Shown in pieces: positions 16,466-48,157 of a stretch of 52,695 nt of DNA. The DNA lies in the NCBI RefSeq assembly GCF_900101475.1, contig NZ_FMZV01000025.1:1-52695 (forward strand), read 5' to 3'. Numbering within the stretch: the stretch's first letter is position 1; each line of letters begins with the position of its first letter. The notes below the pieces were generated by a model, which saw only the letters and a list, made by a program, of their open reading frames with translations, was not told the DNA's origin and searched no databases. A program made the translations under genes and the position numbers. Source of the DNA: Ruegeria marina (GTDB lineage Bacteria > Pseudomonadota > Alphaproteobacteria > Rhodobacterales > Rhodobacteraceae).

Positions 16466-16589
16466 AACCGGTCTTCTAAGCGGTATGGTTCACCAAAAAA
16501 CACTTTTGAGACCTGAGAACCGTTTTTAGCTACCCGTTGCGCGACATGAAGGCTGCGCGAGTGGCCATAACCTGTCGGTTGCGCTTCTT

Positions 16590-16893
16590 CCCTACGTGCT
16601 ATGGCAGCGAGTTCGTCTAGCGAGTCTTTAATTTCTGGGTCTATGTCAACGACGTCACGTCGGACTTCTCGGCCTGGCAAACTCACGGACAACGGCTATG
16701 TTGAAGCTTTCAACAGCAAGCTCAGGGCGGAGTGTCTAAACACGCACTGGTTTATGAGCCTTGCAGATGCGCGGGAAAAGCTGGAGGATTGGCGCAGGAA
16801 CTACAATGAGGACAGGCCCTACGCGCGCGATCGGATACATCGTCCCGATTGCCATGCATTATCCCGATGGCGGCACCAGCCTGGCATCGTGAG
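16590..16893 (+). pseudogene. IS3-family transposase OrfB, C-terminal remnant
   Basis: Starts in a degenerate CYGSEFV (the DNGSEF block with its aspartate lost) and continues DVTSDFSRPGKLTDNGYVEA, FNSKLRAECLNTHWFMSLAD and WRRNYNEDRP. A frameshift near 16820 leads to AIGYIVPIAMHYPDGGTSLA and a stop. Frame breaks near 16670 and 16820 inactivate it. It is a different IS3 relative from the remnant at 15.4-16.0 kb. Confidence 0.8.
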
Positions 16894-17077
16894 ACAGTCG
16901 GAAAAATCCAGCGTCTGTCGGTCCAATGTTGGGCAGCAGTGCAATCGAATGAAATGGTCTTTCACGAACTGGACCATAGATTGGAAAACATACTGGTTTG
17001 GTAATGGATAGTCCGAGTACAATTGAAGGAGCGCTCAGACAGGTTAAAAAGTTTGTGGCTAAGTGGAGGTTTTAAAA

Positions 17078-18631: not shown

Positions 18632-18770
18632 TGAATGAACTTGCAGGGATAGTTAGGGGAACGAGGCTGGCGATGGCTAATTTGAACGGAACTTTGCTTG
18701 CGACGGGGTAGTGGGCTGGATAGCGTTCTGTAATGGTAAGACGCGACCCGTTCAAGTGCTTCGCGATGTG

Positions 18771-19980
18771 AGGTGTCCCTAGATTTATAGACGCTTTGCC
18801 CCCGAACTTTGAAGCTCAGAGGCAGATATGGGGACAAGCAATCCCAGCGACGAGTTCAAGCGCGACGCGGTGCACCAGATTACGGTACGTGGGTATCCGG
18901 TTCGGGAGGTTTCGCAACGTTTGGGTGTGAGCACGCACTCTCTGTGCAAGTGGCTGAAGCTGTTTGCTGAACCATCACCGAAGCCGGGCGTAGACCACGA
19001 AGCCGAGAACCGGCGTTTGAAGCGGGAGCTGGCGAGGGTGACCGAGGAGCGTGACATCTTAAAAAAGGCGACGGCGTACTTCGCGCGCGAGTCCCAATGA
19101 AGTACGCCTTCATCCGGGCGCATCGCGGAGCGTTCGGCGTCCGGGCCATGTGCCGGGTGCTGCGGGTTCATTTCATCTGCTTCTATGCATGGATTAAGGA
19201 ACTGTTAAACCCCGGACGTGCGCCAGACCGAGCTGATCCGACAGGCTTGGGCGGGCAGCGGCAAGGTCTATGGCTATCGCAAGCTGACGGACGATCTGCG
19301 CGATCAGGGCGAGCAAATTTTAGAGAACCGTCTGGCCCGCTTGGCATCCATGGCCAGGATCGCTGTATAGATCAGGTACAAGCGCCGTCCGGGCCGGTAT
19401 GGCGGCAAGCCAGCCATCGTGGCCGAGAACAGGTTGGAGCAGCAGTTCCAAGCTTCTGCCCCCGATCAGGTCTGGGTAGCCGAAATCACCTACATCAAGA
19501 CCCACGAGAGTTGGCTGTATCTGTGTGTCGTCATCGACCTGTTCTCGCGCCGCGTGGTCGGCTGGTCTGCGCAATCCCGAATGACCACGGACCTCGCCCT
19601 GCAAGCTTTGCAAATGGTCGTTTGGCGACGAAAACCCGCTGGACAGGTCATGGTGCATTCCGATCAGGGTTCACAGTTCACCAGGCGGGAGTGGCAGACG
19701 TTTGTACATCAGTACAATCTGGAACCGAGCAGGAGCCCGCGCGGAAACTGCCATGACAATGCCGTTGCAGAAAGCTTCTTTCAGCTGCTGAAGCGGGAGC
19801 AGATCAGGTGACGGACAAATCCGCCCCGCGACGATGCGCGGCGAGACATGTTCGAATACATCGAGCAGTTCTGCAACCCGAAGCGCAAGCACACGAATAA
19901 CGGCATGCTGTCGCCCGTTGACTATGAGATCAGACAGCAGAAATTGAACAAGGCAGGTGTCCAGGAAACTAGGGGCACCT
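18771..19980 (+). mobile_element. IS3-family insertion sequence with both ends
   Basis: Inverted ends are visible: AGGTGTCCCTAGATTTA at 18771-18787, and the reverse complement of the right end (to 19980) starts AGGTGCCCCTAGTTTCC. Between them lie OrfA and a damaged OrfB in the standard overlapping arrangement. I see no convincing 3-4 bp target duplication. The element can no longer make a full OrfAB transposase. Confidence 0.82.
18828..19100 (+). CDS. IS3-family transposase OrfA
   Basis: A 90-residue protein of typical OrfA length. An N-terminal helix-turn-helix (RDAVHQITVRGYPVREVSQR, then LGVSTHSLCKW) recognises the element ends; a C-terminal leucine-rich coiled coil (ENRRLKRELARVTEERDILK) mediates multimerisation. 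It ends KKATAYFARESQ with the A6 slippery run near 19060 where IS3 elements make the OrfAB fusion by programmed -1 frameshifting. OrfB starts in the overlapping ATGA at 19097. OrfA appears intact. Confidence 0.92.
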   Translation: MGTSNPSDEFKRDAVHQITVRGYPVREVSQRLGVSTHSLCKWLKLFAEPSPKPGVDHEAENRRLKRELARVTEERDILKKATAYFARESQ

Positions 19981-19981
19981 A
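19097..19981 (+). pseudogene. IS3-family transposase OrfB, inactivated
   Basis: The start (MKYAFIRAHRGAFGVRAMCR) is intact. The frame changes near 19210, then TELIRQAWAGSGKVYGYRKL is readable. A TAG near 19369 and a TGA at 19809 interrupt the catalytic domain, whose pieces are APDQVWVAEITYIKTHESWL (first Asp lost or shifted), VMVHSDQGSQFTRREW and DNAVAESFFQLLKREQ. The tail FEYIEQFCNPKRKHTNNGML follows the last stop. One frameshift and two nonsense codons make it non-functional. Confidence 0.85.
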
Positions 19982-20202
19982 AGTCACACGATAGATCCAA
20001 ACGCTCGACGAGCGTCGCCCGCGCCATCTTTATTAAGCTAGTTCAGAATTTCCGAGATCCGCTGTCTGGCACGCATGATAGACTGGGCATGGCGACGCCT
20101 CGTTCATAAAACAAACTCCGGATATCGCAAACGGAAGCAATGCGGTGATTGACACGAAACCGATAGAAAGCTGTTTCCCAAGCATGTATAGCCTGTAACA
20201 CG

Positions 20203-21403: not shown

Positions 21404-22450
21404 CTATGGGGCTGAACAAGTAAAATTGGTATCCCGTAGAACCGCTCGTGTTTCAGCAAGCACTGCCGAGGGCAGTTTGCCAAACTGCTCTTGGAACTTT
21501 CTGGCGAAATAGCCGGATTTGGTGAAGCCGGCATCCAGCGCCACCTCTTTCACCGACCTGGGCGGGGTGGCAGGGTTGGTCAACCGCTCATATGCTGCGC
21601 CTAGTCTCAAGGCCATTAGGCACTCACCTGGTGCGAGCCCGTGAATTTCATGGAACGCCTCGAAAAGCCGCGTCTCACCAACACCCAACAAGCTGCAAAG
21701 CTGTGACAGGCTCGGAGGCGCATCCGGTGTATCAAACGTCAGTCGCCGTGCTTCCGCTGCGATATCAAAGGCTCGCCTTCGCGCGCCATGAATGCGCGGT
21801 GCGTTGCCGACAGTCGTGAAATACTCGTGCGCCAGCACATCCACAAAATCCCGATCCAGCGTACCATGGTACTTGTATACCCTGTCTGCGGTTTCTTTCG
21901 TGTCGTTTTGCGAGAGACTGCTTTGAAGTCTAAGCGCCTGAGACACTAGCCGCCTCGAAGGCCTGAACCTCAACCATTTCATATCCAACCGTAAATCGGG
22001 CTGACCCGAAAGCGCACGCAAGGCCTCCTCCAGCGCTGGTCGATAAACTCCTATTGTTAGATTATCCCGCCCTTTGCCGTGCGCTGTATAGCCGTTGGGC
22101 TCACCGGTGATGAAGGCATCGCCCGGCTTGACCTCCTGCCCGTCGAAGATGTAATCGCCTATCCATGACAACGGGATGTGCCAAGCTAGCCATTCACGGT
22201 GAGGAACGGTGTAGCCAGTGAAACGGCCCGGAAGATACATCCGAGACACCGAAGACATCTTTCCTGCAAATTTTTTCCCGAAAAGGCTCGGGGCACCCGC
22301 GTCAAGTAACGCTAGATGACCTTCTCCTATCGGCATACCGCGTAGTTGTTCCGCAAAACTTACAATCTTCTGGAGACCCGCCGGTTTTCCAGAAATTTCT
22401 TCAGTTTTGGCGTTTGACAGCCCGATAGAGTGACGAACTTTTGGTCTCAT
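21404..22450 (-). CDS. AraC-family transcriptional regulator
   Basis: A 348-residue protein. A variable N-terminal ligand/dimer domain is followed by two helix-turn-helix units at about residues 240-335: SLSQLCSLLGVGETRLFEAF, then SVKEVALDAGFTKSGYFARK and FGKLPSAVL, the AraC signature. The start is the ATG at 22450. It is transcribed away from the OprB porin gene, with about 215 bases between them, so it is the natural candidate to control the porin-amidohydrolase operon. The N-terminal domain resembles AraC-binding-like regulators of aromatic or amino-compound catabolism only loosely; the effector is unknown. Confidence 0.9.
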   Translation of the reverse strand: MRPKVRHSIGLSNAKTEEISGKPAGLQKIVSFAEQLRGMPIGEGHLALLDAGAPSLFGKKFAGKMSSVSRMYLPGRFTGYTVPHREWLAWHIPLSWIGDYIFDGQEVKPGDAFITGEPNGYTAHGKGRDNLTIGVYRPALEEALRALSGQPDLRLDMKWLRFRPSRRLVSQALRLQSSLSQNDTKETADRVYKYHGTLDRDFVDVLAHEYFTTVGNAPRIHGARRRAFDIAAEARRLTFDTPDAPPSLSQLCSLLGVGETRLFEAFHEIHGLAPGECLMALRLGAAYERLTNPATPPRSVKEVALDAGFTKSGYFARKFQEQFGKLPSAVLAETRAVLRDTNFTCSAP

Positions 22451-22666: not shown

Positions 22667-23926
22667 TTGAATTTTTCGACCTTTTGCCGACTTTCAGCTT
22701 TGCCGATTATTCTATCGTTGCCAGCCTTCGTTTTGCCGTCCACTGTTTTGGCCCAGCAGGTGAGTAGCCTGCTGTCGGGGCCTGACTCCACGCCTAACCT
22801 TCTCAGCTCTGATGCGCAGGAAAAAGACGACCTGCTGAACGTCGATGCTCAGCAGGGCTTTGACGACTGGAAAGCGGGCATAAAGGAGCGGTTCGGGCTG
22901 GATTTTGGGATCGATTACAACGTACTTGGATACACTGCGAGTTCTAGCCTCGGAGAAAGGAAAAGTGCCAGCGGCGCCTTTCGTCTTTTCGGGACATGGG
23001 ATCTGGTCAACCGTGAGGGTCCTAATACCGGTAGCTTGATTTTCAAGTTCGAAAACCGACACGCGTTCACTACGGTGCCGCCCACGGGCTTCGGTGGGGA
23101 ATTGGGCTATGCTGGTCTCAACAGCTCAGTGTTCAGCGATCAAGGTTGGCGTGCAACGCATCTCTATTGGCAACAGGAATTCGCCCAAGGACGCGGCGTA
23201 GCCTATATTGGGTGGTTGGATGTGACGGATTTCGTCGATGTTTATGCCCTTGCCAGCCCCTGGACCGGTTTTTCCAACATTGCGTTTCAGACTGGGTCCG
23301 GAACCATCGGAGGCCTGCCGGACGGGGCGTTGGGGGCAATGGCCGGCGGGTTCCTGACCGATAACATATATGCTTCAGCAGGGATCGCAGATGCCAATGC
23401 GGATCCGACCGACCCGATTAGTGGTTTCGATACTCTGTTCGATCAAGGCGAAACATTCAAGTCGCTTGAAATCGGCTGGACTTCGGGTGCCGAAGCGCTT
23501 TTCGTCAACAATGCTCATCTAACCTTCTGGCAAATCGACGCGCGTCAACAGGCAGGAACGCCGGGAGGCCACGGCATTGCCTTTTCCTACACTCATGTTT
23601 TGGGAGATGCATGGCTGCCCTTCATACGTGGAGGTTGGGCCGACGATGGCGGCAGCCTCTACGAGGCCGCCGTCAGCGCGGGTTTCGGTTACACCCGTCA
23701 GCCTGGGAGAAACCTGCTCGGTGTGGGTCTCAACTGGAGTCGGCCGAATGATACAACCTTTGGGCCAAATTTAAGAGACCAGTACACGCTGGAGGTTTTT
23801 CAGCAATGGCAGTTGACCGAAGGCTTGGAGCTGACGCCGAGCGTTCAGATCATCAAGAACCCGGCCCTGAACCCAAACAAGGATACGGTTGCATTGTTCG
23901 GCTTGCGGTTCCGGGCATCGTTTTGA
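22667..23926 (+). CDS. OprB-like carbohydrate-selective porin family protein
   Basis: A 419-residue outer-membrane protein. A signal peptide precedes VLPSTVLA-QQ (near residue 27). The mature part has DFGIDYNVLGYTAS, a porin-type internal pattern (GAFRLFGTWDLVNREGPNTG, WRATHLYWQQEF, AYIGWLDVTDFVDVY) and a terminal strand LFGLRFRASF ending in phenylalanine. This order matches OprB-family porins. I chose TTG 22667 because GAGGGG lies about ten bases upstream and it gives a clean signal peptide; TTG 22601 or GTG 22634 would add residues before it. It is the first gene of the operon, likely admitting the substrate of the exported amidohydrolases. OprB members are not always sugar-specific. Confidence 0.82.
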   Translation: MNFSTFCRLSALPIILSLPAFVLPSTVLAQQVSSLLSGPDSTPNLLSSDAQEKDDLLNVDAQQGFDDWKAGIKERFGLDFGIDYNVLGYTASSSLGERKSASGAFRLFGTWDLVNREGPNTGSLIFKFENRHAFTTVPPTGFGGELGYAGLNSSVFSDQGWRATHLYWQQEFAQGRGVAYIGWLDVTDFVDVYALASPWTGFSNIAFQTGSGTIGGLPDGALGAMAGGFLTDNIYASAGIADANADPTDPISGFDTLFDQGETFKSLEIGWTSGAEALFVNNAHLTFWQIDARQQAGTPGGHGIAFSYTHVLGDAWLPFIRGGWADDGGSLYEAAVSAGFGYTRQPGRNLLGVGLNWSRPNDTTFGPNLRDQYTLEVFQQWQLTEGLELTPSVQIIKNPALNPNKDTVALFGLRFRASF

Positions 23927-24035
23927 TGAGCGCGCGCCCTCAGGACACGGCTAAGGAACTAAGGAGCAGATCCGACCAGGCGGATGCCGGTTGAACCTGT
24001 GCATACAGAACCGCTTGATCATAAGGAGACGAAAC

Positions 24036-24923
24036 GTGGAACAACACGGTGACACTCATTTCATCCGAAGCATAAGCACAAAACGCGACTGTTCAGGGTT
24101 GGGAAATGCCGGGAGATACGCGCGTTTGTGCAGTTCGGCCGCTTGTCTAATCGCGTTCGCAAGCGCGACTTTGGCGGAGGAGGAAATCAACAACGGGACA
24201 AACCCCATCAAGCTCACCAGCCAAATCGCGCTTCAGTACCAGTTCAATCAGATCGATTCCAACCTCAACACGGGTCTGCTCGAGTTTGCCTATACAAAGC
24301 CTTTCGGCGATATGAGCCAATCCTTCCGACTGACCGTGCCTTTCTCGGACAGTCCGTTCAACGCTAACCCCACCTTTGGGGATACGGCAGCCATTGCAGC
24401 GGCCAATCCTTCCGTGGGCAACGAAATGCGGCTTGGCGATATAAGCCTCATGTTCATCAAGGTCTTCGGCGTAACCGAAAAGAATGGCGCCGCGGCCACG
24501 TTCGAACTGTTTCTGGACACGGCCGAGACGCCGACGGCAGGCTATGGTCAATTTGCTGCCGAAGCCTCTGCCTACTACGCGTGGTTCCTCGATAACGGGT
24601 CGATCTTTTCGCCAGCCATAGTTCACACCTTCGGGCTCGAAGGTGGCAACAGCCTGGGCGTGGACGTCAATACCACAACTATCGACTTCTACTATGTGCC
24701 CAAGCTCCCAACGTCGAAATACTACATGACCTTCGACCCGGCGATCATCCACGACTGGGAGAACGACGCGACCTTCGGCAGCTTGCAGGTCACATTTGGG
24801 ATCATGACGGGCAAGGCATTTGGCGGCGACAGCCAATTATTCATCAAACCCGGTGTCCTTTTCGGCGGCGACGCTCCGGCCGATTGGTCGGTGCAGTTTG
24901 GATACAAGATTCTGAACTTCTGA
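24036..24923 (+). CDS. Putative outer-membrane beta-barrel protein
   Basis: A 295-residue exported protein. The GTG start at 24036 is preceded by AAGGAG at usual spacing; the frame is open from 23991. The signal sequence ends in FASATLA-EE near residue 47. The mature part alternates hydrophobic and polar residues in strand-like runs (KLTSQIALQYQFNQIDSNLN, LLEFAYTKPFGDMSQSFRLT, WSVQFGYKILNF) and ends in phenylalanine, indicating a barrel of about 12 strands. I do not recognise a specific family. Its position between the OprB-like porin and the amidohydrolases suggests a second uptake or surface component of the same pathway. Confidence 0.7.
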   Translation: MEQHGDTHFIRSISTKRDCSGLGNAGRYARLCSSAACLIAFASATLAEEEINNGTNPIKLTSQIALQYQFNQIDSNLNTGLLEFAYTKPFGDMSQSFRLTVPFSDSPFNANPTFGDTAAIAAANPSVGNEMRLGDISLMFIKVFGVTEKNGAAATFELFLDTAETPTAGYGQFAAEASAYYAWFLDNGSIFSPAIVHTFGLEGGNSLGVDVNTTTIDFYYVPKLPTSKYYMTFDPAIIHDWENDATFGSLQVTFGIMTGKAFGGDSQLFIKPGVLFGGDAPADWSVQFGYKILNF

Positions 24924-24980
24924 GACAAAGGGCAACGGTTCTAACGATCTAGTCAACGGAATCCTGAAACGGAGAACTTT

Positions 24981-26663
24981 ATGCAAAAGATAATTTCAAC
25001 CGCCTTACTGGCCTCTCTTGCATGGTCGACCGCACATGCACAGGACTATGATCTGGTCATCCTGAATGGGAGGGTCATGGACCCCGAAACGATGCTTGAC
25101 GGGCAGTTCAACGTGGGTATCAAGAATGGAAGGATCGAGGTCATCACGCCAAGCGAGATCACCGGCGCCGAAACCATTGATGCATCAGGCCATGTCGTCG
25201 CGCCCGGATTCATAGACCTGCATTTCCACGCCCTCGACGGGCTCTCGCTGAAGCTGGCCGCGCTTGACGGCGTGACCACCGGGATGGATCTGGAAGCTGG
25301 TGCAATTAACGTAGCCGAATGGTATACTGAAAAGGATTCAACCGGCTGGCCGCTCAACTATGGAACCGGGGTCAGTCAGGAGATGACACGGACCCGAGTC
25401 CATGACCCCGAGGTCGATACTAGCGGTTGGCACGACGCCACCAGCGTTTTCGACCTGCGCGCTCAGGCAGTGCAGGATGGTGTGCCGGGTTGGTCGGTTA
25501 CGCGCAGCAACTCTGATCAGTTCAACCAAATCCTAACCTATATCGACGAAGAATTGCGTCAGGGTGCAATCGGAATTTCCTCGACCATCGGCTACATGAC
25601 CGAAGGCGTGACCACCTTCGAAATGTTCAAGACCCAAGAAATCGCGGCGAAATACGGCCGCTTCCTCGGCGCGCATGTGCGGTTCCACGGCAACCCCTCC
25701 AACCCCGAAGGTCCGCTAGGCACCAGCGAATTGCTGGCCAACGCGCTGGCGCTGGATGCTCCGTTCTCGCTTAACCACAACAACGAGTATGGTTGGTGGG
25801 AGAACGAGGAGAAACTTCAGAAGGCTCGCGCGCAAGGATACAACGTCTGGTCGGAATACTATCCCTATTCGGCGGCTTCGACGGCGATCTCCGCAGAGTT
25901 CTTTCATCCGGACAAGTTCGCGATTATTTCGGGTGGGCGACCCTACGAAGAGACGATCTACGATCCGGTTCAGGACAAGTTCCTGACGCAGGAAGAGTGG
26001 GAGAAAACCTCGGCAGAGTTTCCGGGTCGCTCGATCTTTGCCTTCAATCCCAAACGTGACGAATGGCTCCCCTACTGGCAGAGAATGCCGCACATGATCG
26101 TCGCCTCCGATGCAATGTTTTCCGGCAAGGGGATCGACTCCTGGGACCTGCCGCCCGAAGAATATGTCGGTCATCCGCGAACTGCGGGCACGCGCGGCAA
26201 GGTTCTGGCCGGCGGGCGCGAGCAAGGCGTCCCACTGATGTTCACGATCGCGCAGATGGCCTATTGGCCGGCATATCACCTGGGCTTGACAGGTCTTGAG
26301 GGGATGCAGGAGCGGGGCCGCCTGCAGGAAGGTATGGTCGCCGACATCACGATCTTCGATCCGGAGAACGTGAAAGACAATGCCACCTACAAGGCCGGTG
26401 AGCAGGGTCAGCCGACCACGGGCATTCCCTATGTCATCGTGAGCGGTGTGCCTGTCGTGAAGGAAAGCGAATTCCAGTTGGATGTTCGTCCGGGCAAGTC
26501 GATCCGCTTCCCGGTGGAACAAAAGGGCCGCTTCGAGCCCGTCACATTCGAGGCTTGGGAGAAGGCGCACACGATTACCGGCTTCACCATCGACCCCGGC
26601 GCGCTGGGTCAGCCTGACAGCGGTGCTGACGCGGGCGTGTCGCGCCAAACCGGGGATGAGTGA
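24981..26663 (+). CDS. Secreted amidohydrolase, D-aminoacylase-like, copy 2
   Basis: A 560-residue exported enzyme with a short signal peptide ending AHA-QD at residue 20. The metal site begins H81-F-H83 (PGFIDLHFHALDG). An acidic bridge candidate is in MDLEAGAINV; further histidines are in FLGAHVRFHG and FSLNHNNEY; the catalytic-type aspartate is in MIVASDAMFSG. A composite-domain tail ([25 protein letters not shown]) closes the beta-sandwich. The order fits N-acyl-D-amino-acid deacylases. It is paralogous to the protein at 17078 but about 40 residues longer at the C-terminus. It overlaps the small secreted-protein gene that follows (TGATG at 26661-26665). Confidence 0.85.
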   Translation: MQKIISTALLASLAWSTAHAQDYDLVILNGRVMDPETMLDGQFNVGIKNGRIEVITPSEITGAETIDASGHVVAPGFIDLHFHALDGLSLKLAALDGVTTGMDLEAGAINVAEWYTEKDSTGWPLNYGTGVSQEMTRTRVHDPEVDTSGWHDATSVFDLRAQAVQDGVPGWSVTRSNSDQFNQILTYIDEELRQGAIGISSTIGYMTEGVTTFEMFKTQEIAAKYGRFLGAHVRFHGNPSNPEGPLGTSELLANALALDAPFSLNHNNEYGWWENEEKLQKARAQGYNVWSEYYPYSAASTAISAEFFHPDKFAIISGGRPYEETIYDPVQDKFLTQEEWEKTSAEFPGRSIFAFNPKRDEWLPYWQRMPHMIVASDAMFSGKGIDSWDLPPEEYVGHPRTAGTRGKVLAGGREQGVPLMFTIAQMAYWPAYHLGLTGLEGMQERGRLQEGMVADITIFDPENVKDNATYKAGEQGQPTTGIPYVIVSGVPVVKESEFQLDVRPGKSIRFPVEQKGRFEPVTFEAWEKAHTITGFTIDPGALGQPDSGADAGVSRQTGDE

Positions 26664-26956
26664 TGCGGCCACCTATCCGTCCAAGCCTGGCGATTGTAGC
26701 GAGCATTTGCGTCGCAATCGGGACGATCGCGTCGGCCAACGATAGGGATGAGAAGATGGTAGGAACTCTTGGCCTCTCGTCCCTAGATCCGCTTGCGCAG
26801 TTGGTTGCCCCGGATCTGGACCGCATCGCTGAAGAGAACGCAGCCTCAGCATCTGATCTTGCGGGGCAGGGGGCGTTTGCCACCGTGTTTTGCCCTGTGC
26901 ATCTGCAACTTGAGACTCAGGTAATTGACTTCTCGAGACGGCGGAAGTCCAATTAG
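26663..26956 (+). CDS. Small secreted protein of unknown function
   Basis: A 97-residue frame starting at the ATG that overlaps the stop of the preceding amidohydrolase. A signal-peptide-like N-terminus (LAIVASICVAIGTIASA, then ND) is followed by a short acidic-to-polar region (LDPLAQLVAPDLDRIAEENA) containing one cysteine (FCPVHL). I recognise no domain. Coupling to the upstream gene and placement before the four tandem enzymes argue that it is real and part of the operon, possibly an accessory or folding partner. It could also be a non-functional open frame, as it has no strong ribosome site of its own. Confidence 0.5.
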   Translation: MRPPIRPSLAIVASICVAIGTIASANDRDEKMVGTLGLSSLDPLAQLVAPDLDRIAEENAASASDLAGQGAFATVFCPVHLQLETQVIDFSRRRKSN

Positions 26957-26987
26957 CTTGTTTCGGGTATTATTTGGAGAAAGAACC

Positions 26988-28322
26988 ATGCAAATTCAAA
27001 ATCTTGTCGCCATTCTTTTTACGGTTTCAGCGAACGCCGTGTTCGCTCAGGAGGCATCCAACCAGACCCTGATCACCAACGTAAATGTCTTTGACGGCGT
27101 GAACGAGGCACTGATCGAGAACGCCAATGTGGTGATCAACGGCAACCTGATCGAGACCATCTCGACCGAACCGCTGGCCGTGGCCGGCGGCAAGGTGATT
27201 GACGGGGGCGGCCGCACGCTGATCCCCGGCTTGATCGACGCGCACTGGCACACGACCTACGCTTACACACCGCAAAGTACGGTCGTATCCGGTGATATCT
27301 CGGAAGTTGCGATCCGCGGAGCGCTTGGCGCCGAAAAAACACTGATGCGCGGCTTTACAACGATCCGTGATACCGGGGGGAATCCATTTTCGATCAAGAA
27401 GATGATCGATTCGGGCGAACTTGTCGGACCGCGCATTCTGCCCTCGGGGCCGCCCATTACGCAAACCGGAGGCCATCTCGACTATCGCCCCTACCAGGCG
27501 GTTCCGATGAACCAAGGCGACTCGCAGTGGTACTGGTACGCCAATGGGCTGATGCTCCAGGCGGACGGCGTGCCCGATGTCATTCTGCGCACGCGCGAGG
27601 TGATGCGCATGGGTGCCTCGCAGATCAAGATCGCGGCAGGCGGCGGCGTGTCTTCGCTCTATGACCCGATTGACGTCCGGCAATACACGCGGGCCGAGTT
27701 GGAAGCCTTTGTCGAGGTCGCCGACACTTACAACACATACGTTCTGGCGCATATCTTTACCGACGATGCCGCGCAGGTGGCAATCGAGGCGGGCGTGAAG
27801 TCGCTGGAGCACGGTATGCTCTTCAGCGAAGAAACCCTTCGAATGATGAAGGAAAACGACGTCTGGCTCTCGACCCAGCCAATCCTGAATGACGAGACCG
27901 CGCTGGCGTTCGATGATCCGGTCAGCACGGCGAAATTCCTTCAGGTCACAGATGGCACTGAGAAGGTGTATCAACTCGCAAAGGAGATTGGGGTGAAGAT
28001 CGCCTTCGGAACCGACATGCTGTTTGACCCGAAGACAGCCGAGTCGCAGACCCAGTTCCTGACGAAGTTGAAGCCGTGGTTCACACCCTACGAGATCCTG
28101 AAGATGGCGACCTCGGACAATGCCGAGCTTTTGGAACTTGCCGGCCCCCGCCATCCCTACCAGGAGGGCCCGCTGGGCGAGATCACCGAAGGAGCCTATG
28201 CCGACCTGATCCTCGTCAACGGTAACCCATTGGTGGACATCGATATTGTCGCCGACCCGCACACCAATTTTGTCCTTATCATGAAAGATGGAGTTATCTA
28301 CAAAAACGCTCTGGAGAACTGA
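26988..28322 (+). CDS. Secreted amidohydrolase, tandem copy 1 of 4
   Basis: A 444-residue exported member of the imidazolonepropionase-like/carboxylated-lysine amidohydrolase group. Signal cleavage is after AVFA (residue 20). Expected binuclear-site residues are all present: H86-W-H88 (GLIDAHWH), K214 (QIKIAAGGG, the lysine normally carbamylated), H255 (VLAHIF), H275 (SLEHGML) and D343 (FGTDML). The ATG at 26988 follows TTGGAGAAAG. Characterised relatives include Xaa-Pro/Xaa-Arg-type dipeptidases and ochratoxinase as well as imidazolonepropionase, so a periplasmic peptidase or amide hydrolase is plausible. It is followed after one base by the next paralogue. Confidence 0.88.
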   Translation: MQIQNLVAILFTVSANAVFAQEASNQTLITNVNVFDGVNEALIENANVVINGNLIETISTEPLAVAGGKVIDGGGRTLIPGLIDAHWHTTYAYTPQSTVVSGDISEVAIRGALGAEKTLMRGFTTIRDTGGNPFSIKKMIDSGELVGPRILPSGPPITQTGGHLDYRPYQAVPMNQGDSQWYWYANGLMLQADGVPDVILRTREVMRMGASQIKIAAGGGVSSLYDPIDVRQYTRAELEAFVEVADTYNTYVLAHIFTDDAAQVAIEAGVKSLEHGMLFSEETLRMMKENDVWLSTQPILNDETALAFDDPVSTAKFLQVTDGTEKVYQLAKEIGVKIAFGTDMLFDPKTAESQTQFLTKLKPWFTPYEILKMATSDNAELLELAGPRHPYQEGPLGEITEGAYADLILVNGNPLVDIDIVADPHTNFVLIMKDGVIYKNALEN

Positions 28323-28323
28323 C

Positions 28324-29658
28324 ATGAAAAACAGGAGGAAACTAATAACGGCCGTGTTCTGTGTGGCGGCGTCGCTAGTCGCGGCGCAGGAGACATCCGA
28401 CCCTGGCACAGTAATCACCGGCGCGCGTATCTTCGACGGCTTGTCGCCTGATCTGATCGAGGGGCAGGATGTTCTGATCCAAGACGGCATGATTGCGGCA
28501 ATCGGTGCCGCTTTGACACCTCCCGAGGGCTCTGCCGTGATCGACGCAAACGGACGGGTCATGATCCCGGGGTTGTCAGACGTACATTGGCACGTGACTA
28601 TGGCAGAGGTGCCTCAGACTACTCTTCTGACTGGCGACGCCTACGAGATCGCGGCGAGGGCAGTTCCGACGGCCGAGCGCACTCTTATGCGTGGCTTCAC
28701 TACGGTTCGCGACCTTGGTGGCAATAGCTTTGCTTTAAAGAAACTGATTGATAGCGGGATTCTTGTCGGACCGCGCATGCTGGTCGCAGGCCCGCCGCTC
28801 ACGCAGACCGGGGGACATTATGATTATCGCCTGCCGCACGACGTGCCAGCTGACAGTACGATGGACTACTGGGGGCGCACGGCTTTTTTTGTAATTGGTG
28901 ACGGAGACGCAGAGGTTCGAAAGCGTGCGCGTGAAATCTTTCGGATGGGAGCCAGTCAGATCAAGATAGCCGCCGGCGGTGGTGTTGCGTCGATCTTTGA
29001 CCCTCTAGACGTGCGCCAATACTCGCTGGAAGAAATGAAGGCGATCGTGGACGTGGCTGAGAGCTATAATAGTTATGTCGCAGCGCACGTAATCGCTGAC
29101 GAAGCTGTCCGGATGGCCGTCGAGGCCGGAATCAAGAGCATCGAACATGGGATGCTGCTTGAACGCGAAACTTTGGAACTCATGAAAGAAAAAGGCGTCT
29201 GGCTCAGCACCCAACCCTTGCTGGACGACGAAGACCGCATGGTCTTCCCGACCGCAGAGTCCACCAAGAAATGGCTTGTCGCAACGGCTGGCACCGAAAA
29301 GGTCTACAAGATGGCCAAGGAAATCGGGGTAAAGATTGCGTTCGGTACGGACGCGTTGATGGACCCGGAAATGGCTGCCAAACAGGGCAAATATCTCAGT
29401 AAGCTCGAAAAGCTTGGTTTCACGCCCTATGAAGCGCTTAAGATGGCGACTTCGGACAATGCTGAACTCATGGAAATGGCTGGGCCGCGTCATCCCTATC
29501 AGAAAGGCCCGCTGGGCGAGATCAGCGTTGGTGCCTATGCAGACCTGATCCTTGTCGATGGGAACCCGTTGGAAGATCTGAGCCTCGTCGCAAACCCCGA
29601 AGATAACTTCGACCTGATCATGAAAAACGGTGTCATATACAAAAATGATATGGAGTAA
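28324..29658 (+). CDS. Secreted amidohydrolase, tandem copy 2 of 4
   Basis: A 444-residue paralogue, the closest of the set to copy 1: both share QTGGHxDYR, QIKIAAGGG, VWLSTQP and the KMATSDNAEL block. Signal cleavage is near residue 20 (SLVA-AQ). Metal and catalytic residues are H88-W-H90, K214, H255, H275 and D342. It begins one base after the preceding stop and ends six bases before the next start, with GGAG within the previous gene's end serving as ribosome site. Substrate specificity probably differs in the loop around DSTMDYWGRTAFFVIG, which is unlike the others. Confidence 0.88.
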   Translation: MKNRRKLITAVFCVAASLVAAQETSDPGTVITGARIFDGLSPDLIEGQDVLIQDGMIAAIGAALTPPEGSAVIDANGRVMIPGLSDVHWHVTMAEVPQTTLLTGDAYEIAARAVPTAERTLMRGFTTVRDLGGNSFALKKLIDSGILVGPRMLVAGPPLTQTGGHYDYRLPHDVPADSTMDYWGRTAFFVIGDGDAEVRKRAREIFRMGASQIKIAAGGGVASIFDPLDVRQYSLEEMKAIVDVAESYNSYVAAHVIADEAVRMAVEAGIKSIEHGMLLERETLELMKEKGVWLSTQPLLDDEDRMVFPTAESTKKWLVATAGTEKVYKMAKEIGVKIAFGTDALMDPEMAAKQGKYLSKLEKLGFTPYEALKMATSDNAELMEMAGPRHPYQKGPLGEISVGAYADLILVDGNPLEDLSLVANPEDNFDLIMKNGVIYKNDME

Positions 29659-29664
29659 AACGCA

Positions 29665-31011
29665 ATGCTCAGACGATTTATGATAACTTCTTTCTTCGCA
29701 CTGGCGGCTCCCGTGGCGGGCGCGCAGAACGACCCGACGGGACCCATCGTCATCACGAATGTGAATGTCTTCGACGGGTCGAGCGAAGAACTGATCGAGG
29801 GCGCGAATGTCGTCATCGACGGTAACCTGATTGCGGAGATCACCACCGAAGATGTTGTGGTTGCCGGTGGTCGGGTGATCGACGGCGGCGGCCGCACGCT
29901 TATGCCGGGGCTGATCGATACTCACACGCACATCATGCTGCATTCGGATCCCGTGACGCAATTGATGACGCAGGATGCATTCGAACAAGGGGCTCGCGGC
30001 GCAGCACGTGCGAAGGCCTATTTGGATGCCGGGTTTACCACTGTGCGAGACTTGGGTGGAAATTGTTTTGGCGTAAAGAATGTCATCGACGCGGGCGTTT
30101 CACCAGGGCCACGGATTTACTGCGGCGGCGCCAGTATCACTCAAACATCCGGACATGGCGACTTCCGGATGACGAACGACGGGCACCCGAGGTTTGACGG
30201 CTTTGCGGCCTCTGGTGTCGCCAACACGACGAAGACCACTATCATCGCTGATGGCGTGGATGACGTGCGCGCCGCTGTCCGTGAAATGCTGTTCCGGGGA
30301 GCGTCCCAAATCAAGGTACACGCAGGTGGCGGCGTAACCAGCTTCAAAGACCCGCTGGAGGCAGCTCAGTACACCCAGGAAGAACTCAACGCAGCGGTGG
30401 AAGAGGCTGAGCGTTACGGCACCTATGTGACGGTACATGCCCAAGTGAATAACGCCGTTGTGGCATCCCTCGATGCAGGCGTCAGAACCGTTGAACACGG
30501 CCTGATCATGGAAGAGGAAACCATGGTGAGGATGGCCGAGGAAGGCGTCTACTGGATCCCACAGGCGTTTCTCGCGCTTCAGGACGTCTCGAGCAATCCA
30601 CTGTTTCAGGACCCGATCCAGAATGCCAAGTTGGCCAAGGTCAATGCAGGCGCGCGCCAAGCCTTCGAATGGGGCATTGAACACGGCGTCAAGACGGGCT
30701 GGGGAAGTGATGTTTTCGGAGCAAATGATATCTTTGCTACTTTCCGGCAGGAATTCGCCTTTCGTGACGAGTTCTACGAACCCATTGAGCAGATGCAACA
30801 AGTCACCGGTGTGAACGGAGAAATTCTCGCTCTGAGCGGTTTGAAGAACCCGTACGTAGATGGTCCGCTCGGTGTCATCGCCGAAGGAGCTTACGCGGAT
30901 ATCATTCTGGTCGACGGTGACCCGACCCAAGACATTCACCTTTTGATGGACTCGAACAACATTGCCCTGATCATGAAGGACGGTGTCATCTACAAAAGCG
31001 ACTTGGAGTGA
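29665..31011 (+). CDS. Secreted amidohydrolase, tandem copy 3 of 4
   Basis: A 448-residue paralogue with signal cleavage near residue 20 (PVAGA-QN). It is the most divergent at the active site: the first pair is H87-T-H89 instead of H-W-H, the lysine segment is K217 in QIKVHAGGG, H258 is in VTVHAQ, H278 in TVEHGLI, and the aspartate D349 sits in GWGSDVF instead of FGTD. The segment VYWIPQAFLALQDV replaces VWLSTQP. It therefore keeps the full binuclear set but likely handles a different substrate from copies 1 and 2. The tail IMKDGVIYKSDLE matches the shared C-terminus. Confidence 0.87.
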   Translation: MLRRFMITSFFALAAPVAGAQNDPTGPIVITNVNVFDGSSEELIEGANVVIDGNLIAEITTEDVVVAGGRVIDGGGRTLMPGLIDTHTHIMLHSDPVTQLMTQDAFEQGARGAARAKAYLDAGFTTVRDLGGNCFGVKNVIDAGVSPGPRIYCGGASITQTSGHGDFRMTNDGHPRFDGFAASGVANTTKTTIIADGVDDVRAAVREMLFRGASQIKVHAGGGVTSFKDPLEAAQYTQEELNAAVEEAERYGTYVTVHAQVNNAVVASLDAGVRTVEHGLIMEEETMVRMAEEGVYWIPQAFLALQDVSSNPLFQDPIQNAKLAKVNAGARQAFEWGIEHGVKTGWGSDVFGANDIFATFRQEFAFRDEFYEPIEQMQQVTGVNGEILALSGLKNPYVDGPLGVIAEGAYADIILVDGDPTQDIHLLMDSNNIALIMKDGVIYKSDLE

Positions 31012-31016
31012 CCATA

Positions 31017-32354
31017 GTGCTGCATAAAGCGTTTATCGCCACTGCTTTCGCCGTTGCGGCTTCGGTCGTGGGAGCGCAGGAGGAGGCAAAAGAAACGCAA
31101 GTCCTGTTCAAGAACGTGCGCGTTTTCGACGGGGTCGGAACGGAACTGAGCGACCCGACCAATGTGCTGGTCACCGGAAACATGATCGGTGCGATCGGGC
31201 CCGACGTGACGGCTGACGGCGATGCGACGATCATCGCCGGCGATGGACGGACACTAATGCCGGGCCTCTCGGACTGCCACTGGCATTCGCATTCGATCGC
31301 AGTCACCAATCCCGAACTGCTTTTCGGGGATCCCTTCAAGAACATTATCAAGGTTGCCCTCGAATCAGAGCATACGTTGATGCAGGGCATCACCACCGTG
31401 CGCGACGTGGGCGGCAACATTTTTGGCGTCAAGGCACTGATTGACGAGGGGCGCCTCGTGGGGCCGCGCATTCTGCCCTCCGGGGCCTACCTGACGATGA
31501 CCTCCGGTCACGGTGAAATGCGCTTGCCCAATGTCCTGCTGCGCCCCGAAGGCCGTGCATTGATCGACCAGGAAATTCTGGGACATACGGCGATTGCCGA
31601 CGGAGTGCCCGCAGTCTTGAGGCGCACACGGGAAAACCTGATGCGCGGGGCCACACAGATCAAGGCGATGGCAGGCGGTGGCGTCGCGTCATTTTCCGAT
31701 CCCCTGGACGGCGCACAATTCAGTCTTGAGGAACTCAACGCGATCGTCGAGGAAGCCGAGAGATGGAACACTTACGTCACCGTTCACACCTACACCGCGA
31801 AAGCGGTTCAGCACGCCTTGGAGGCTGGCGTCAGAAGCATCGAACACGGCCAGATGATCGACGAGGAAACGGCGCAGATGCTTGCGGAGACTGACGCATG
31901 GTTGTGCCTGCAACCCTTCCTGGACGACGAGGATAGGATCCCTCTGGATGGAGAGTTCAACAACCGCAAGTACGATCAGATGCTTGGTGGAACCGACACT
32001 GCCTACAAGCTGGCCAGGAAATACGATGTCAATGTCGGCTTCGGTACGGACATGCAGCAGAATCCTGCCATGATCGACCGCTGGGGCGCGCAGCTGGTGA
32101 AGCTTACGAATTGGTACACACCAGTCGAGGCTCTGCAAATGGCAACCAGCATCAACCAAGAGTTCTTCAAGATGGCGGGTGAGCGGCATCCCTATCAGAA
32201 AGGTCCGCTCGGGGTCGTGCAGGAAGGAGCCTATGCCGATCTGCTGCTCGTCGAAGGTAATCCCCTGGAAAACATCGAGTTGGTCGCCGACCCCAACTCG
32301 AACTTCAAGATCATCATGAAGGACGGCGTGATCTACAAGAACACGCTGGAGTAA
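31017..32354 (+). CDS. Secreted amidohydrolase, tandem copy 4 of 4
   Basis: A 445-residue paralogue, last of the array. I chose GTG 31017 because GGAG at 31004-31007 is well spaced and the protein then begins with a compact signal peptide (MLHKAFIATAFAVAASVVGA, then QE); GTG 31008, overlapping the previous stop, would add three residues. Active-site residues are H88-W-H90 (GLSDCHWH), K216 (QIKAMAGGG), H257, H277 and D345 (FGTDMQ). The C-terminus IIMKDGVIYKNTLE matches the other copies. A strong terminator follows immediately, marking the end of the operon. Confidence 0.87.
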   Translation: MLHKAFIATAFAVAASVVGAQEEAKETQVLFKNVRVFDGVGTELSDPTNVLVTGNMIGAIGPDVTADGDATIIAGDGRTLMPGLSDCHWHSHSIAVTNPELLFGDPFKNIIKVALESEHTLMQGITTVRDVGGNIFGVKALIDEGRLVGPRILPSGAYLTMTSGHGEMRLPNVLLRPEGRALIDQEILGHTAIADGVPAVLRRTRENLMRGATQIKAMAGGGVASFSDPLDGAQFSLEELNAIVEEAERWNTYVTVHTYTAKAVQHALEAGVRSIEHGQMIDEETAQMLAETDAWLCLQPFLDDEDRIPLDGEFNNRKYDQMLGGTDTAYKLARKYDVNVGFGTDMQQNPAMIDRWGAQLVKLTNWYTPVEALQMATSINQEFFKMAGERHPYQKGPLGVVQEGAYADLLLVEGNPLENIELVADPNSNFKIIMKDGVIYKNTLE

Positions 32355-32360
32355 CAACGA

Positions 32361-32394
32361 CCGCCCGCCGCGAAAGCGCGGTGGGCGGCTTTTT
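32361..32394 (+). terminator. Rho-independent terminator after the amidohydrolase array
   Basis: A 12-bp stem (CCGCCCGCCGCG at 32361-32372 with CGCGGTGGGCGG at 32377-32388, one G-T wobble), an AAAG loop and a T5 run at 32390-32394, starting six bases after the last amidohydrolase stop. It separates the hydrolase operon from the ABC transporter operon. Confidence 0.92.
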
Positions 32395-32411: not shown

Positions 32412-33098
32412 ATGCACCCATTGCGAATTGAACGACTTGTCTACCGGTGGCCGGGCGCGGCGCGCAGCACACTGGGTATTGGCGCGCTGTCTCTGGCGTC
32501 CGGCGAGCGCCTGTTTCTCCATGGTCCCAGCGGGTGCGGAAAATCGACCCTGCTGTCGGCGATTGCGGGAGTGGTCGATGTGCCCACGGGGGCCATACTT
32601 GTTGCGGACAAGGACGTAGGCGCGTTGAATGGCGGCGCGCGGGACCGGTTCCGGGTGGATCATATCGGCATGATCTTTCAGGTATTCAATCTGATCCCAT
32701 GGCTGAGCGCGCTCGAGAACGTCCTTCTTCCCTGTACATTCTCCAAGCGTCGGCTCGAGCGCTCGGGCGAGGATCCTGCGGGAACGGCCCGGAATCTGCT
32801 CGACGAACTGGGTCTGTCGGATCCGTCCCTAGCATCCAAGCCGGCTAGCGAGCTCAGCGTGGGCCAGCAACAACGGGTTGCTGCCGCGCGCGCGCTAATC
32901 GGCAAGCCGGACCTTATCCTTGCGGATGAACCGACCTCGGCGCTCGATGAGGTGGCCAAGGCGGCCTTTGTCGACCTGCTGGCAAGGGAGTGCGCCGAAG
33001 CGGGCACCGCGCTGCTCTTCGTGAGCCATGACCGCAGCCTGGAGCATCATTTCGACCGCAGTGTTGATTTTCTCGCCCTAAACGGTGGCGCGGCCTGA
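32412..33098 (+). CDS. ABC transporter ATP-binding protein (LolD/MacB-type)
   Basis: A 228-residue nucleotide-binding subunit with Walker A GPSGCGKST (residues 38-46), Q-loop region IGMIFQVFNLIPWL, signature LSVGQQQR, Walker B LILADEPTSALDE and the H-loop histidine in LLFVSHDR. The IFQVFNLIPWLSALENVLLP stretch is typical of the LolD/MacB/FtsE branch that works with FtsX-type permeases. Its stop overlaps the permease start (TGATG at 33096-33100). Together they form a mechanotransmission-type or exporter-type ABC system rather than a binding-protein-dependent importer. Confidence 0.93.
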   Translation: MHPLRIERLVYRWPGAARSTLGIGALSLASGERLFLHGPSGCGKSTLLSAIAGVVDVPTGAILVADKDVGALNGGARDRFRVDHIGMIFQVFNLIPWLSALENVLLPCTFSKRRLERSGEDPAGTARNLLDELGLSDPSLASKPASELSVGQQQRVAAARALIGKPDLILADEPTSALDEVAKAAFVDLLARECAEAGTALLFVSHDRSLEHHFDRSVDFLALNGGAA

Positions 33099-34438
33099 TG
33101 CTGGGGTTCAGCCTGCGCAGCCTGTGGAACCGCCGCTTCGTGGCCGGCCTGACCGTGCTGGCCATTAGCCTCAGCGTCGCGCTGATCCTCGGTGTTGAAC
33201 GGCTCCGGGACGGCGCGCGTGACAGCTTTGCCAACTCCGCGTCCGGGATAGACCTGATCGTGGCGCCGCGCGGCAATTCGGTGCAGATCCTGATGGCCAC
33301 CGTCTTCGGCGTCGGCGGCACCGGGACGGGCATGACATGGGACAGCTTCGAGTGGCTGGAAGATCGGCCCGAGGTGGCCTGGGCGGTCCCGATCCAGATG
33401 GGCGACAATCATCGCGGCTATCCGGTGATCGGGACGGATGCATCGTATTTCGAGCATTTCCGGCACTCTGGCGGTCAGCCTCTCTCCCTCGCCGCAGGCA
33501 CGTTCCTTTCCGGTGACGGGGCGGATGCCGCCGTGGTCGGGGCCGAGGTCGCGGCGCGGTTCGACTATGCCCCCGGTGCGGTGATCGTCAACGCCCACGG
33601 CTCGGGCGAGGTTTCCTTCGACCTGCACGACGACGCGCCCTTCACAATATCGGGTGTGCTCGCGCCGACGGGTACCGCCGTCGACCGGATGGTCTTCGTC
33701 ACGCTCGAAGGGTTCGACGCCCTGCATGCGGAAGAAGATGCGCCTGCTGCCGACCCCCTCGACCCGGCCGCCATGCCCACCGACGATCATGACGATCATG
33801 ACGATCATGGCGGGCATGACGGGCATGACGATCATGAAGATCATGGCGAACACGAAGGCACGGAGGCCAAACACAGTCACGAACCGGACCGGATCAATGC
33901 CGTCTACGTTGGGCTGATCGATCGGACGAATGTCCTTGGTCTGCAGCGGGCCATCAACGAACGCCCCTCCGATGCGTTGAGCGCAGTCCTCCCGGCGGTC
34001 GCGCTCACCGAGCTCTGGGGGATTACCGGGACAGCGGAGCGCGCGATGCGACTGATGGCGTGGGCCGTGGCTTTGGCAGGGATGATCGGCATGGTGGTCA
34101 TGCTCTCTGCGACCCTCGACACACGCCGCCGCGAATTCGCGATTCTGCGGTCTGTTGGCGCCACGCCCACCCGTATCTTTGCGCTAATTGTCGCCGAGGC
34201 CGCCATCCTCACCGCGGCGGGGCTGATCCTTGGCCTTGTTCTGCTCACGGTGGCCACGTTCGTGACCGACCCGATCCTGTCTGCCCGCTTCGGTCTGAGG
34301 TTGGGATTGAATGTCTTCGGTGCGCGCGAAATGGCCACCCTTTTCGTCATCTTCTGCGCCGGGCTCCTCGCCTCGCTCATCCCGGCGGTCCGGGTCTACC
34401 GCATGACGCTGGCCGACGGGCTGTCGGTTCGGCTATGA
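33098..34438 (+). CDS. FtsX/MacB-type ABC permease with histidine-rich periplasmic loop
   Basis: A 446-residue permease. One N-terminal membrane helix (about residues 10-30) is followed by a large periplasmic domain and three C-terminal helices with the FtsX motif TRRREFAILRSVGATPTRIF. Residues about 228-264 form a histidine/aspartate-rich run built of repeated DDH and GH units, encoded by near-repeats of GACGATCAT, a probable metal-binding segment. FtsX permeases with such loops and DUF3299 neighbours resemble the Vibrio cholerae ZrgABCDE zinc locus as I recall it, so zinc or another divalent metal is the likely cargo or signal. No separate binding protein is encoded here. Confidence 0.85.
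   Translation: MLGFSLRSLWNRRFVAGLTVLAISLSVALILGVERLRDGARDSFANSASGIDLIVAPRGNSVQILMATVFGVGGTGTGMTWDSFEWLEDRPEVAWAVPIQMGDNHRGYPVIGTDASYFEHFRHSGGQPLSLAAGTFLSGDGADAAVVGAEVAARFDYAPGAVIVNAHGSGEVSFDLHDDAPFTISGVLAPTGTAVDRMVFVTLEGFDALHAEEDAPAADPLDPAAMPTDDHDDHDDHGGHDGHDDHEDHGEHEGTEAKHSHEPDRINAVYVGLIDRTNVLGLQRAINERPSDALSAVLPAVALTELWGITGTAERAMRLMAWAVALAGMIGMVVMLSATLDTRRREFAILRSVGATPTRIFALIVAEAAILTAAGLILGLVLLTVATFVTDPILSARFGLRLGLNVFGAREMATLFVIFCAGLLASLIPAVRVYRMTLADGLSVRL
33781..33866 (+). repeat. Short in-frame repeats encoding a His/Asp-rich segment
   Basis: Near-identical 9-base units (GACGATCAT and variants with GGGCAT, GAAGAT and GCGAACAC) run through this stretch inside the ABC permease gene. They encode alternating D-D-H and G-H units. 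Such repeats expand or contract by slippage, so loop length may vary between strains. Confidence 0.8.
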
Positions 34439-34458
34439 CAAATGAAGGGGATATTTCC

Positions 34459-35115
34459 ATGACCACGTTCGCCCGTCTCGTCTTGATATTCTCGCTTGCC
34501 CTTTCTCCGGGCTTCGCACAGGCGACTGAACCTCAGGAAATCTCGTGGGCTACGCTTGCACCTCCTGCCGCCGTGATTGAGAACCCGTTCGAGAACCTCA
34601 CCGATGATCAGATGGACAGCTTGCGCCAGATCCTACGGTTCGAGGCACGGGCGGAGCGGAGCGATGACGCTGAAGCCCGCGCCGAAGCGCAAGCGTTGCG
34701 CAAACAATTGGCCGACGAGGGCCTTGATGTCGACGGGTTGTTCGCCGCGCGCCTCGCGATCATGGAAGAACGTGAAGCTGCGGCCACCGAGGTGAACGAA
34801 GACCTCGTTGGCATGAGCGTCCGCCTGCCGGGCTATGTTCTGCCCCTGGAATTTAAGGGTCGTAAGGTCGTCGAGTTTCTCCTCGTGCCTACGGTCGGCG
34901 CCTGCATCCATACTCCGCCGCCGCCCGCCAACCAGATCGTCCATGTCGTGTATCCCGAGGGCATCGAGGTTAGCGGTCTTTTCACCCCGGTATGGATCAC
35001 CGGGACCATGGTCGCCCAGAGTTCGGTTCAGACGGTTGGCTATGTCGACGGACAGGCCCCGGTTTCTGTCAGCTATTCGATGCAGCCGCAGCTGGTCGAG
35101 GAGTATGGCGGCTGA
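34459..35115 (+). CDS. Exported DUF3299-domain protein
   Basis: A 218-residue protein. A signal peptide ends SPGFAQA-TE near residue 23, then comes a charged helical linker (DDQMDSLRQILRFEARAERS, residues about 50-110). The DUF3299 domain occupies about 120-215, recognisable by VEFLLVPTVGACIHTPPPPA with a conserved cysteine and histidine. The ATG at 34459 follows AAGGGG; an ATG at 34435 overlapping the permease stop is an alternative. DUF3299 proteins are often encoded next to zinc or metal ABC systems, matching the histidine-rich permease just upstream. The C-H pair could bind metal. Function not established. Confidence 0.85.
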   Translation: MTTFARLVLIFSLALSPGFAQATEPQEISWATLAPPAAVIENPFENLTDDQMDSLRQILRFEARAERSDDAEARAEAQALRKQLADEGLDVDGLFAARLAIMEEREAAATEVNEDLVGMSVRLPGYVLPLEFKGRKVVEFLLVPTVGACIHTPPPPANQIVHVVYPEGIEVSGLFTPVWITGTMVAQSSVQTVGYVDGQAPVSVSYSMQPQLVEEYGG

Positions 35116-42760: not shown

Positions 42761-42767
42761 GCGGATT

Positions 42768-43259: not shown

Positions 43260-43263
43260 CACC

Positions 43264-46970: not shown

Positions 46971-46988
46971 CGACAAAAAGCCGACAAA

Positions 46989-48068: not shown

Positions 48069-48157
48069 CGTTGCTGAGCGGCGCGATGCTGAGCTAGCAC
48101 TGACGGGGTTGCAAGCGCAGAGCTTTGGCAATGCCACACCTAAAACTGGCGCCCGTA

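Follow-up and report, generated by a model that had tools for sequence, protein, structure and literature searches.

An exported amidohydrolase operon of Ruegeria marina flanked by AraC, ABC transporter, and DUF3299 genes

RESULTS

The amidohydrolase module described here comes from Ruegeria marina, on contig NZ_FMZV01000025.1 (C18), which we analyzed as a single window: all 52,695 nucleotides of the contig, from a genome of 5.0 Mb. A sequence-only reading of this window had pointed to eight genes between positions 22667 and 32354, and all eight are present on the + strand. An OprB-type porin gene (22667 to 23926) is followed by genes for a second outer-membrane barrel of about 12 strands, here called barrel-2 (24036 to 24923; the start at 24036 is probable), for a D-acylase-like amidohydrolase of the PRK09061 subfamily (24981 to 26663), and for a small open reading frame (ORF) of 98 residues (26660 to 26956). 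The run ends with four COG1228 amidohydrolases, A1 (26988 to 28322), A2 (28324 to 29658), A3 (29665 to 31011), and A4 (31008 to 32354, with a GTG start). The related enzyme noticed upstream was also confirmed; it is a second PRK09061-type exported amidohydrolase, encoded outside the operon at 17078 to 18631 (+ strand). The run from OprB to A4 stands as first proposed, but the module is larger than first described. Overlooked were an AraC-type regulator gene upstream, divergent from the operon (21404 to 22450, − strand; PF12833 HTH_18, 53 bits), and three + strand genes downstream that extend the module to 35115. These encode a ZrgC-like ABC ATPase (32412 to 33098; PF00005, 102 bits), a ZrgB-like MacB/FtsX-type permease with a His-rich insert (33098 to 34438; PF12704 and PF02687; 10 His in 35 residues), and a ZrgE-like DUF3299 protein with an export signal and the motif CxHxPxPxxNQ (34435 to 35115; PF11736, 122 bits).

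The genes had been described as tightly packed. This is true among the four COG1228 genes and at 26663/26660, where gaps are 1 to 6 bases or the frames overlap, but not between OprB and barrel-2 (109 bases), barrel-2 and the D-acylase-like gene (57 bases), or the small ORF and A1 (31 bases). A rule-based scan scored export signals in all eight operon genes, in agreement with the signal peptides predicted at first sight, and also in the 17078 enzyme and in DUF3299; barrel-2 scored solely from an internal start. The same scan found no export signal in AraC or the ATPase. It did score the first helix of the permease and 4 of 15 other window proteins, namely, two TRAP-type binding proteins, in which a signal is expected, and two lower-scoring proteins. 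The small ORF had been read as a secreted protein, and the rules do give it a signal, but it has no Pfam match or other family assignment and no relative across 191 loci once the two that represent the window are set aside. Its status as a real gene is doubtful.

We then considered the outer-membrane channels. The window porin is a clear OprB (PF04966, 71.2 bits; cut-off, 22.9), and OprB is rare, with 28 genes (merged from 32 rows) in 12 of 150 genomes of the family. For the OprB and DUF3299 counts in these genomes, we defined "near" as within 8 kb; Poisson expectations and P values take genomes as independent. By this measure, 23 of the 28 OprB genes lie near a COG1228 or PRK09061 gene, against an expectation of 0.67. 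The remaining five include two that adjoin an M19 dipeptidase gene with AraC upstream (our loci L115 and L116) and one that adjoins a sulfatase gene (L117); neither kind of neighbor was seen at L113 or L118. In the R. marina genome itself, the search found two OprB genes, both near amidohydrolases. The second, on contig C37, belongs to a group of divergent AraC, COG1228, DUF3299, PhoD-like, and OprB genes. Among the loci compared, the best match to the window OprB and D-acylase-like pair was L082, which has AraC, COG1228, OprB, another ORF, and a D-acylase gene.

Barrel-2 has no Pfam match. Its AlphaFold2 model is of moderate quality (pLDDT 71) and has 12 long strands; FapF and the COG4313 channel 4rl8 are the nearest folds by Foldseek, at 14% identity. 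A weak match links it to the L051-type barrel (orf292; hhalign probability 91, small alignments). Relatives occur in 7 of 390 genomes searched, R. marina included, and 7 of the 8 relatives outside R. marina sit in clusters with COG1228 or PRK09061 enzymes. The barrel gene directly adjoins COG1228 in L052, L102, L103, and L104 and is one gene away in L106; in L105 and L108, a D-acylase-like or DUF3299 gene adjoins it, and COG1228 lies 7 to 8 kb off in the same cluster. Linkage elsewhere thus supports the proposal of periplasmic enzymes coupled as a set to channels of the outer membrane, and the suggested search for porins beside signal-peptide amidohydrolases in other genomes gives a positive result.

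A1 to A4 match PF01979 with 99 to 149 bits and carry the residues His, His, Lys, His, His, and Asp, which are invariant in 18 of 18 aligned COG1228 proteins, A1 to A4 included. This places them in COG1228; we take the HxH, Lys, His, His, and Asp residues to be the metal ligands. Against the Xaa-Pro dipeptidase equivalog NF051886 (cut-off, 500), the four score 197 to 264 bits (A1, 221.7; A2, 263.8; A3, 213.2; A4, 196.8). Since all fall below the cut-off, the substrate is not readable from the family. Of the COG1228 proteins, A2 and A4 were compared with the PDB; their best matches are 3mkv and 3feq (the latter entry is named prolidase), followed by ochratoxinase, other amidohydrolases, and arginine carboxypeptidase. 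A1 to A4 therefore share their family, near full-length alignments, and six ligands with COG1228 prolidases and Xaa-Pro dipeptidases (3mkv, 3feq, and 3mtw Cc2672) and with ochratoxinase (4c5y). They differ in that four diverged copies lie in one operon with channels and in scoring below the equivalog cut-off. The closest named matches of A4 are from Salipiger bermudensis (78% identical), followed by Roseibium aggregatum (55%); the remaining four A4-related loci, of six in all, come from Salipiger mangrovisoli, Chitinophaga, Balneolaceae, and a Saprospiraceae bacterium. In a tree of 68 sequences, A1 to A4 form no single clade. A1 and A2 fall in neighboring groups, and A3 and A4 in separate ones; A1, A3, and A4 are each nearest to a member of another cluster (for A3 this is L106, whose cluster has barrel-2), and A2 is nearest to L052 and L051. 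These separate groups with outside neighbors rule out a recent tandem duplication. The set looks assembled from diverged members.

Both window enzymes of the other type exceed the PRK09061 cut-off (NF006560, 340 bits), with 345.6 bits for the operon enzyme and 418 bits for the 17078 enzyme, and they are 38% identical. The model of the operon enzyme is closest to 3gip (TM 0.68 by query length). The first description, D-aminoacylase-like, holds for the fold but not for the metal site. Like the N-acyl-D-amino-acid deacylases 3gip and 1m7j, the enzyme has HxH, two His, and Asp, but it lacks the Cys that presumably bridges the metals. Cys is found at that column in 0 of 20 aligned proteins, and Glu one column earlier in all 20. 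Ten of the 20 have a Cys two columns later; neither window enzyme does.

The downstream block resembles the Zrg systems, which import zinc in Vibrio and comprise an ATPase (ZrgC), a MacB-like permease (ZrgB), a DUF3299 protein (ZrgE), and a binding protein (ZrgA), according to the accessible portions of PMC9817125 and PMC9820375. Genes for the ATPase, permease, and DUF3299 protein are adjacent in the window, as they are in ZrgABCDE of Vibrio and in PA4063 to PA4066. Unlike ZrgABCDE, the window block has a His-rich stretch on the permease, is linked to hydrolase and AraC genes, and comes without ZrgA. A search with PF10986 found no ZrgA in the R. marina genome, which rules out a canonical ZrgABCDE identity. 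Of the 12 genomes that bear the module, 9 lack ZrgA, R. marina among them; in the other three, it lies a few kilobases from DUF3299 genes of the full-profile type. The His-rich stretch follows the same division: it is present in 13 of 13 permeases from loci with no ZrgA match (6 to 11 His per 35 residues) versus 0 of 11 from loci with ZrgA (2 to 3 His per 35 residues). A tree of 24 permeases, from which L134 was omitted, places the eight amidohydrolase-linked permeases in one clade (support, 0.61).

The CxHxPxPxxNQ motif of DUF3299 is conserved in 22 of 22 aligned proteins, and 4hsp is a solved relative. In four loci, DUF3299 is fused to NicO, a nickel-transport domain (L052, 6606 to 7925; L103, 5679 to 7349; L122, 6655 to 8199; L139, 2425 to 4101), and all but the L122 fusion are beside or at most 1 kb from COG1228. 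DUF3299 is mentioned in four papers of the literature searched but in no title or abstract, a search whose scope left subscription papers mostly outside. In L087 (9229 to 14666) and L088 (10355 to 14597), a Zrg-like ABC block of a second type includes a biotin/lipoyl-binding protein. The L087 block adjoins a metallo-hydrolase gene annotated gntH, and the L088 block is near sulfatase and alkaline-phosphatase-family genes.

Linkage of DUF3299 to the enzymes recurs across the family. In the 150 genomes, 25 of 69 DUF3299 matches (33 genomes) are near COG1228 or PRK09061, 22 of the 25 on the same strand, against an expectation of 1.0; the 69 rows are unmerged, so that a broken gene in genome G017 contributes more than one of them. 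The clustering of OprB and DUF3299 with amidohydrolases far exceeds chance. The ABC, permease, and DUF3299 genes and AraC recur in seven other clusters, so that with the window, eight clusters have an ABC-permease pair by the enzymes (L045 of Roseibium aggregatum, L051, L064, and L067 to L070). DUF3299 is found inside a run of enzyme or enzyme and porin genes in L064, L069, L077, and L078. Smaller clusters, in which AraC precedes COG1228, DUF3299, and OprB, are L022, L054, L077, L078, L079, L080, and L087; the last is on a Ruegeria conchae plasmid, and some add PhoD or other genes. AraC-type genes lie within 3.5 kb, on either strand, of 43 of 123 COG1228 and PRK09061 amidohydrolases. Further hydrolase families appear in related clusters, namely, Beta-lactamase2 (L045 and L064), the choloylglycine-hydrolase family (L106), and PF00144 Beta-lactamase (L105). 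As separate observations, an FMN-dependent dehydrogenase gene stands between two COG1228 genes in L104 (6493 to 7545), and a Vibrio cyclitrophicus plasmid (L089, 7005 to 9843) has two short amidohydrolase coding sequences, apparently one broken gene, followed by a longer copy and DUF3299. Away from amidohydrolases, we compared 19 DUF3299 loci, which hold 23 of the 44 DUF3299 matches not near such an enzyme: 11 are of the ZrgA type, 3 have other ABC pairs, and 5 have none. No module-type permease was found in the 19, the best scoring 601 bits versus at least 863 bits for module relatives. Among the papers listed in our literature searches, judged by title and start of abstract and with subscription papers mostly outside the scope, none describes a locus of this kind.

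At the junction of the last hydrolase gene and the ABC gene, the terminator first noted at 32361 corresponds to a real hairpin (32361 to 32388, + strand) of 12 pairs followed by CTTTTT, but it need not end the operon. Four related clusters in which COG1228 precedes the ABC gene have a G+C-rich hairpin at the same junction (L045, 12871 to 12905; L064, 4528 to 4565; L069, 14169 to 14206; L070, 11860 to 11895), none with the T-run, which is seen in the window only. These hairpins weaken the case for a plain terminator as the operon end. No junction hairpin was found in the three clusters with OprB before the ABC gene (L051, L067, and L068). Hairpins are thus present in five of eight clusters, window included, with 93% of cells paired; their alignment has no compensatory base changes. 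The element could serve in processing or attenuation.

A general way to look at the role of neighbors is to ask whether they follow the compartment of the enzyme. We classed 123 COG1228 and PRK09061 matches from the 150 genomes by N terminus, using rules that include what we take to be the Tat and KR-type motifs, and recorded same-strand neighbors within 6 kb. Ten of the 123 labels were set by hand from the N termini, not blind to neighbors, and 2 of 34 cytoplasmic controls were miscalled as Sec. By rules and hand corrections, 81 of the 123 are exported (74 before correction), so the earlier contrast with described members that are mostly cytoplasmic is unsafe. Bile salt hydrolases that are metal dependent and secreted have also been described (PMC13081902). 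With hand-corrected labels, DUF3299 neighbors are confined to exported enzymes (35 of 81, versus 0 of 42 unexported); by signal type, they accompany 34 of 67 enzymes with Sec, 0 of 11 with Tat, and 1 of 3 with KR-type signals. Uncorrected, the counts are 31 of 62 for Sec, 1 of 12 for Tat, and 3 of 49 for no signal, or 32 of 74 versus 3 of 49. CobW shows the opposite pattern, such neighbors being seen for 7 of 42 unexported enzymes, from six genomes, and for 0 of 81 exported enzymes (uncorrected, 7 of 49 versus 0 of 74). CobW is a family of putative metal chaperones; these GTPase genes adjoin unexported PRK09061 or COG1228 genes in L071, L182, L183, L184, L185, and L142. Outside the 150 genomes, a Salipiger mangrovisoli locus (L048) has CobW flanked by COG1228 on one side and, on the other, by a D-acylase-like gene whose start is Tat-like.

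Several other features of the window were noted, those in this sentence by eye: ORFs resembling transposase remnants (15962 to 20027, 35596 to 36171, and 45314 to 45862) flank the 17078 enzyme and the operon, three ORFs resembling phage-type integrases (46923 to 52428) lie near the contig end, possibly the end of an island or plasmid, and TRAP-like transporter sets occur on both flanks (1800 to 4709 and 41777 to 44523). An Omp85-domain barrel gene (PF01103; 14159 to 15403) lies upstream of the 17078 enzyme.

DISCUSSION

We propose that the module is one inducible locus for periplasmic amide hydrolysis, in which DUF3299 and the transporter supply metal to the exported enzymes, a proposal that we regard as evenly balanced. 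It builds on the observed linkage, the protein families, the expected metal ligands, the rule-based export signals, and the compartment split; from these, we infer induction, the substrate class, and the direction and target of the metal step. An organic inducer would act through the AraC protein, this type of regulator generally speaking for such an inducer. OprB and barrel-2 would admit amide compounds across the outer membrane. The D-acylase-like enzyme and the four diverged COG1228 enzymes would be exported unfolded by Sec and would cleave different amide bonds in the periplasm, so that amide compounds are used or disarmed; general transporters would take up the products. The set would thus presumably break down amide- or peptide-like material, as the sequence-only reading suggested. 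Because these enzymes are metal dependent and would fold once exported, the locus would bring its own periplasmic metal machinery, DUF3299 with its Cys-x-His motif and the Zrg-type ABC-permease pair, with the His-rich loop of the permease standing in for the separate binding protein ZrgA.

A more specific version, which we offer tentatively and think somewhat doubtful, is that DUF3299 and the ABC pair (or a fused NicO) form a dedicated periplasmic metallation device, in which the transporter energizes the hand-off of metal to exported amidohydrolases. This would be the outside counterpart of the CobW-type chaperones of some unexported members. Where ZrgA is missing, the permease has a His-rich loop, as if an enzyme client had taken the place of a substrate-binding protein as its partner.

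A number of observations weigh against the main proposal of metal-supplied amide hydrolysis. In the window, the hairpin with its T-run stands between the enzymes and the ABC genes. Half of the Sec-type enzymes lack a DUF3299 neighbor in the 6-kb range (33 of 67), and many clusters carry DUF3299 with no ABC pair, so neither is strictly needed. The zero for unexported enzymes depends on three proteins near DUF3299 that were relabeled by hand with the neighbor known. The Sec/Tat contrast (34 of 67 versus 1 of 14) draws on about five Tat lineages, counted by eye, and is confounded by the channels, which Tat-type enzymes mostly lack too (2 of 11 have one). The Poisson expectations ignore shared ancestry, the permease clade has modest support, and the DUF3299 site is known as a motif alone. 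In genome G065, ZrgA and COG1228 genes do occur 3.4 kb apart, on opposite strands, and the barrel-2 relative at L107 has no such enzyme nearby. Finally, deletion of zrgE by itself had no growth effect in Vibrio cholerae, as reported in the accessible part of PMC9820375.

The operon could serve amide use while the ABC, permease, and DUF3299 genes are a separate, ordinary zinc importer next door, which we consider rather unlikely. The terminator-like hairpin dividing the two blocks and the occurrence of DUF3299 and ABC pairs away from amidohydrolases, as among the 19 loci above, fit such a neighbor. However, the two blocks are contiguous in eight clusters, counting the window and a cluster of Roseibium aggregatum, no ZrgA was found in the R. 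marina genome, the linked permeases form their own clade, and DUF3299 is also found within the enzyme or enzyme-porin runs of four loci. Instead, periplasmic digestion of amides or peptides that bind metal might set zinc free for import by the Zrg-like ABC system. The same gene evidence, together with zinc import by Zrg in Vibrio (from the same portions of PMC9817125 and PMC9820375), is compatible with this, but the channels are of the porin type, and CobW accompanies the unexported members instead, which fits metallation rather than scavenging. An AraC-type regulator, as noted above, also points to an organic inducer, and we think metal scavenging quite improbable.

It is also conceivable, and in our view unlikely, that the set detoxifies, inactivating amide toxins, antibiotics, or acylated signals of neighbors. 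Partners of the Beta-lactamase and choloylglycine-hydrolase families in related loci and ochratoxinase among the PDB relatives of COG1228 would suit such a role. The best PDB matches of A2 and A4, 3mkv and the prolidase-named 3feq, argue against it, and detoxification leaves DUF3299 and NicO unexplained. Our estimates for the proposed metal-supplied amide hydrolysis and for these alternatives overlap and are not meant to be added up.

To our knowledge, it is an open question how zinc-type enzymes exported by Sec acquire the correct metal. A recurrent operon in which exported enzymes of this kind occur together with channels, a regulator of the inducer type, and a Zrg-like machine without ZrgA allows a direct genetic test of metallation. 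The operon also suggests a role for DUF3299, whose function is left open in the accessible portions of the Zrg papers (PMC9817125 and PMC9820375). If DUF3299 and its ABC pair do form a metallation device, DUF3299 gains a function, and metal supply becomes part of a catabolic operon. More broadly, the locus suggests a route by which marine bacteria may process dissolved organic matter of the amide type extracellularly.

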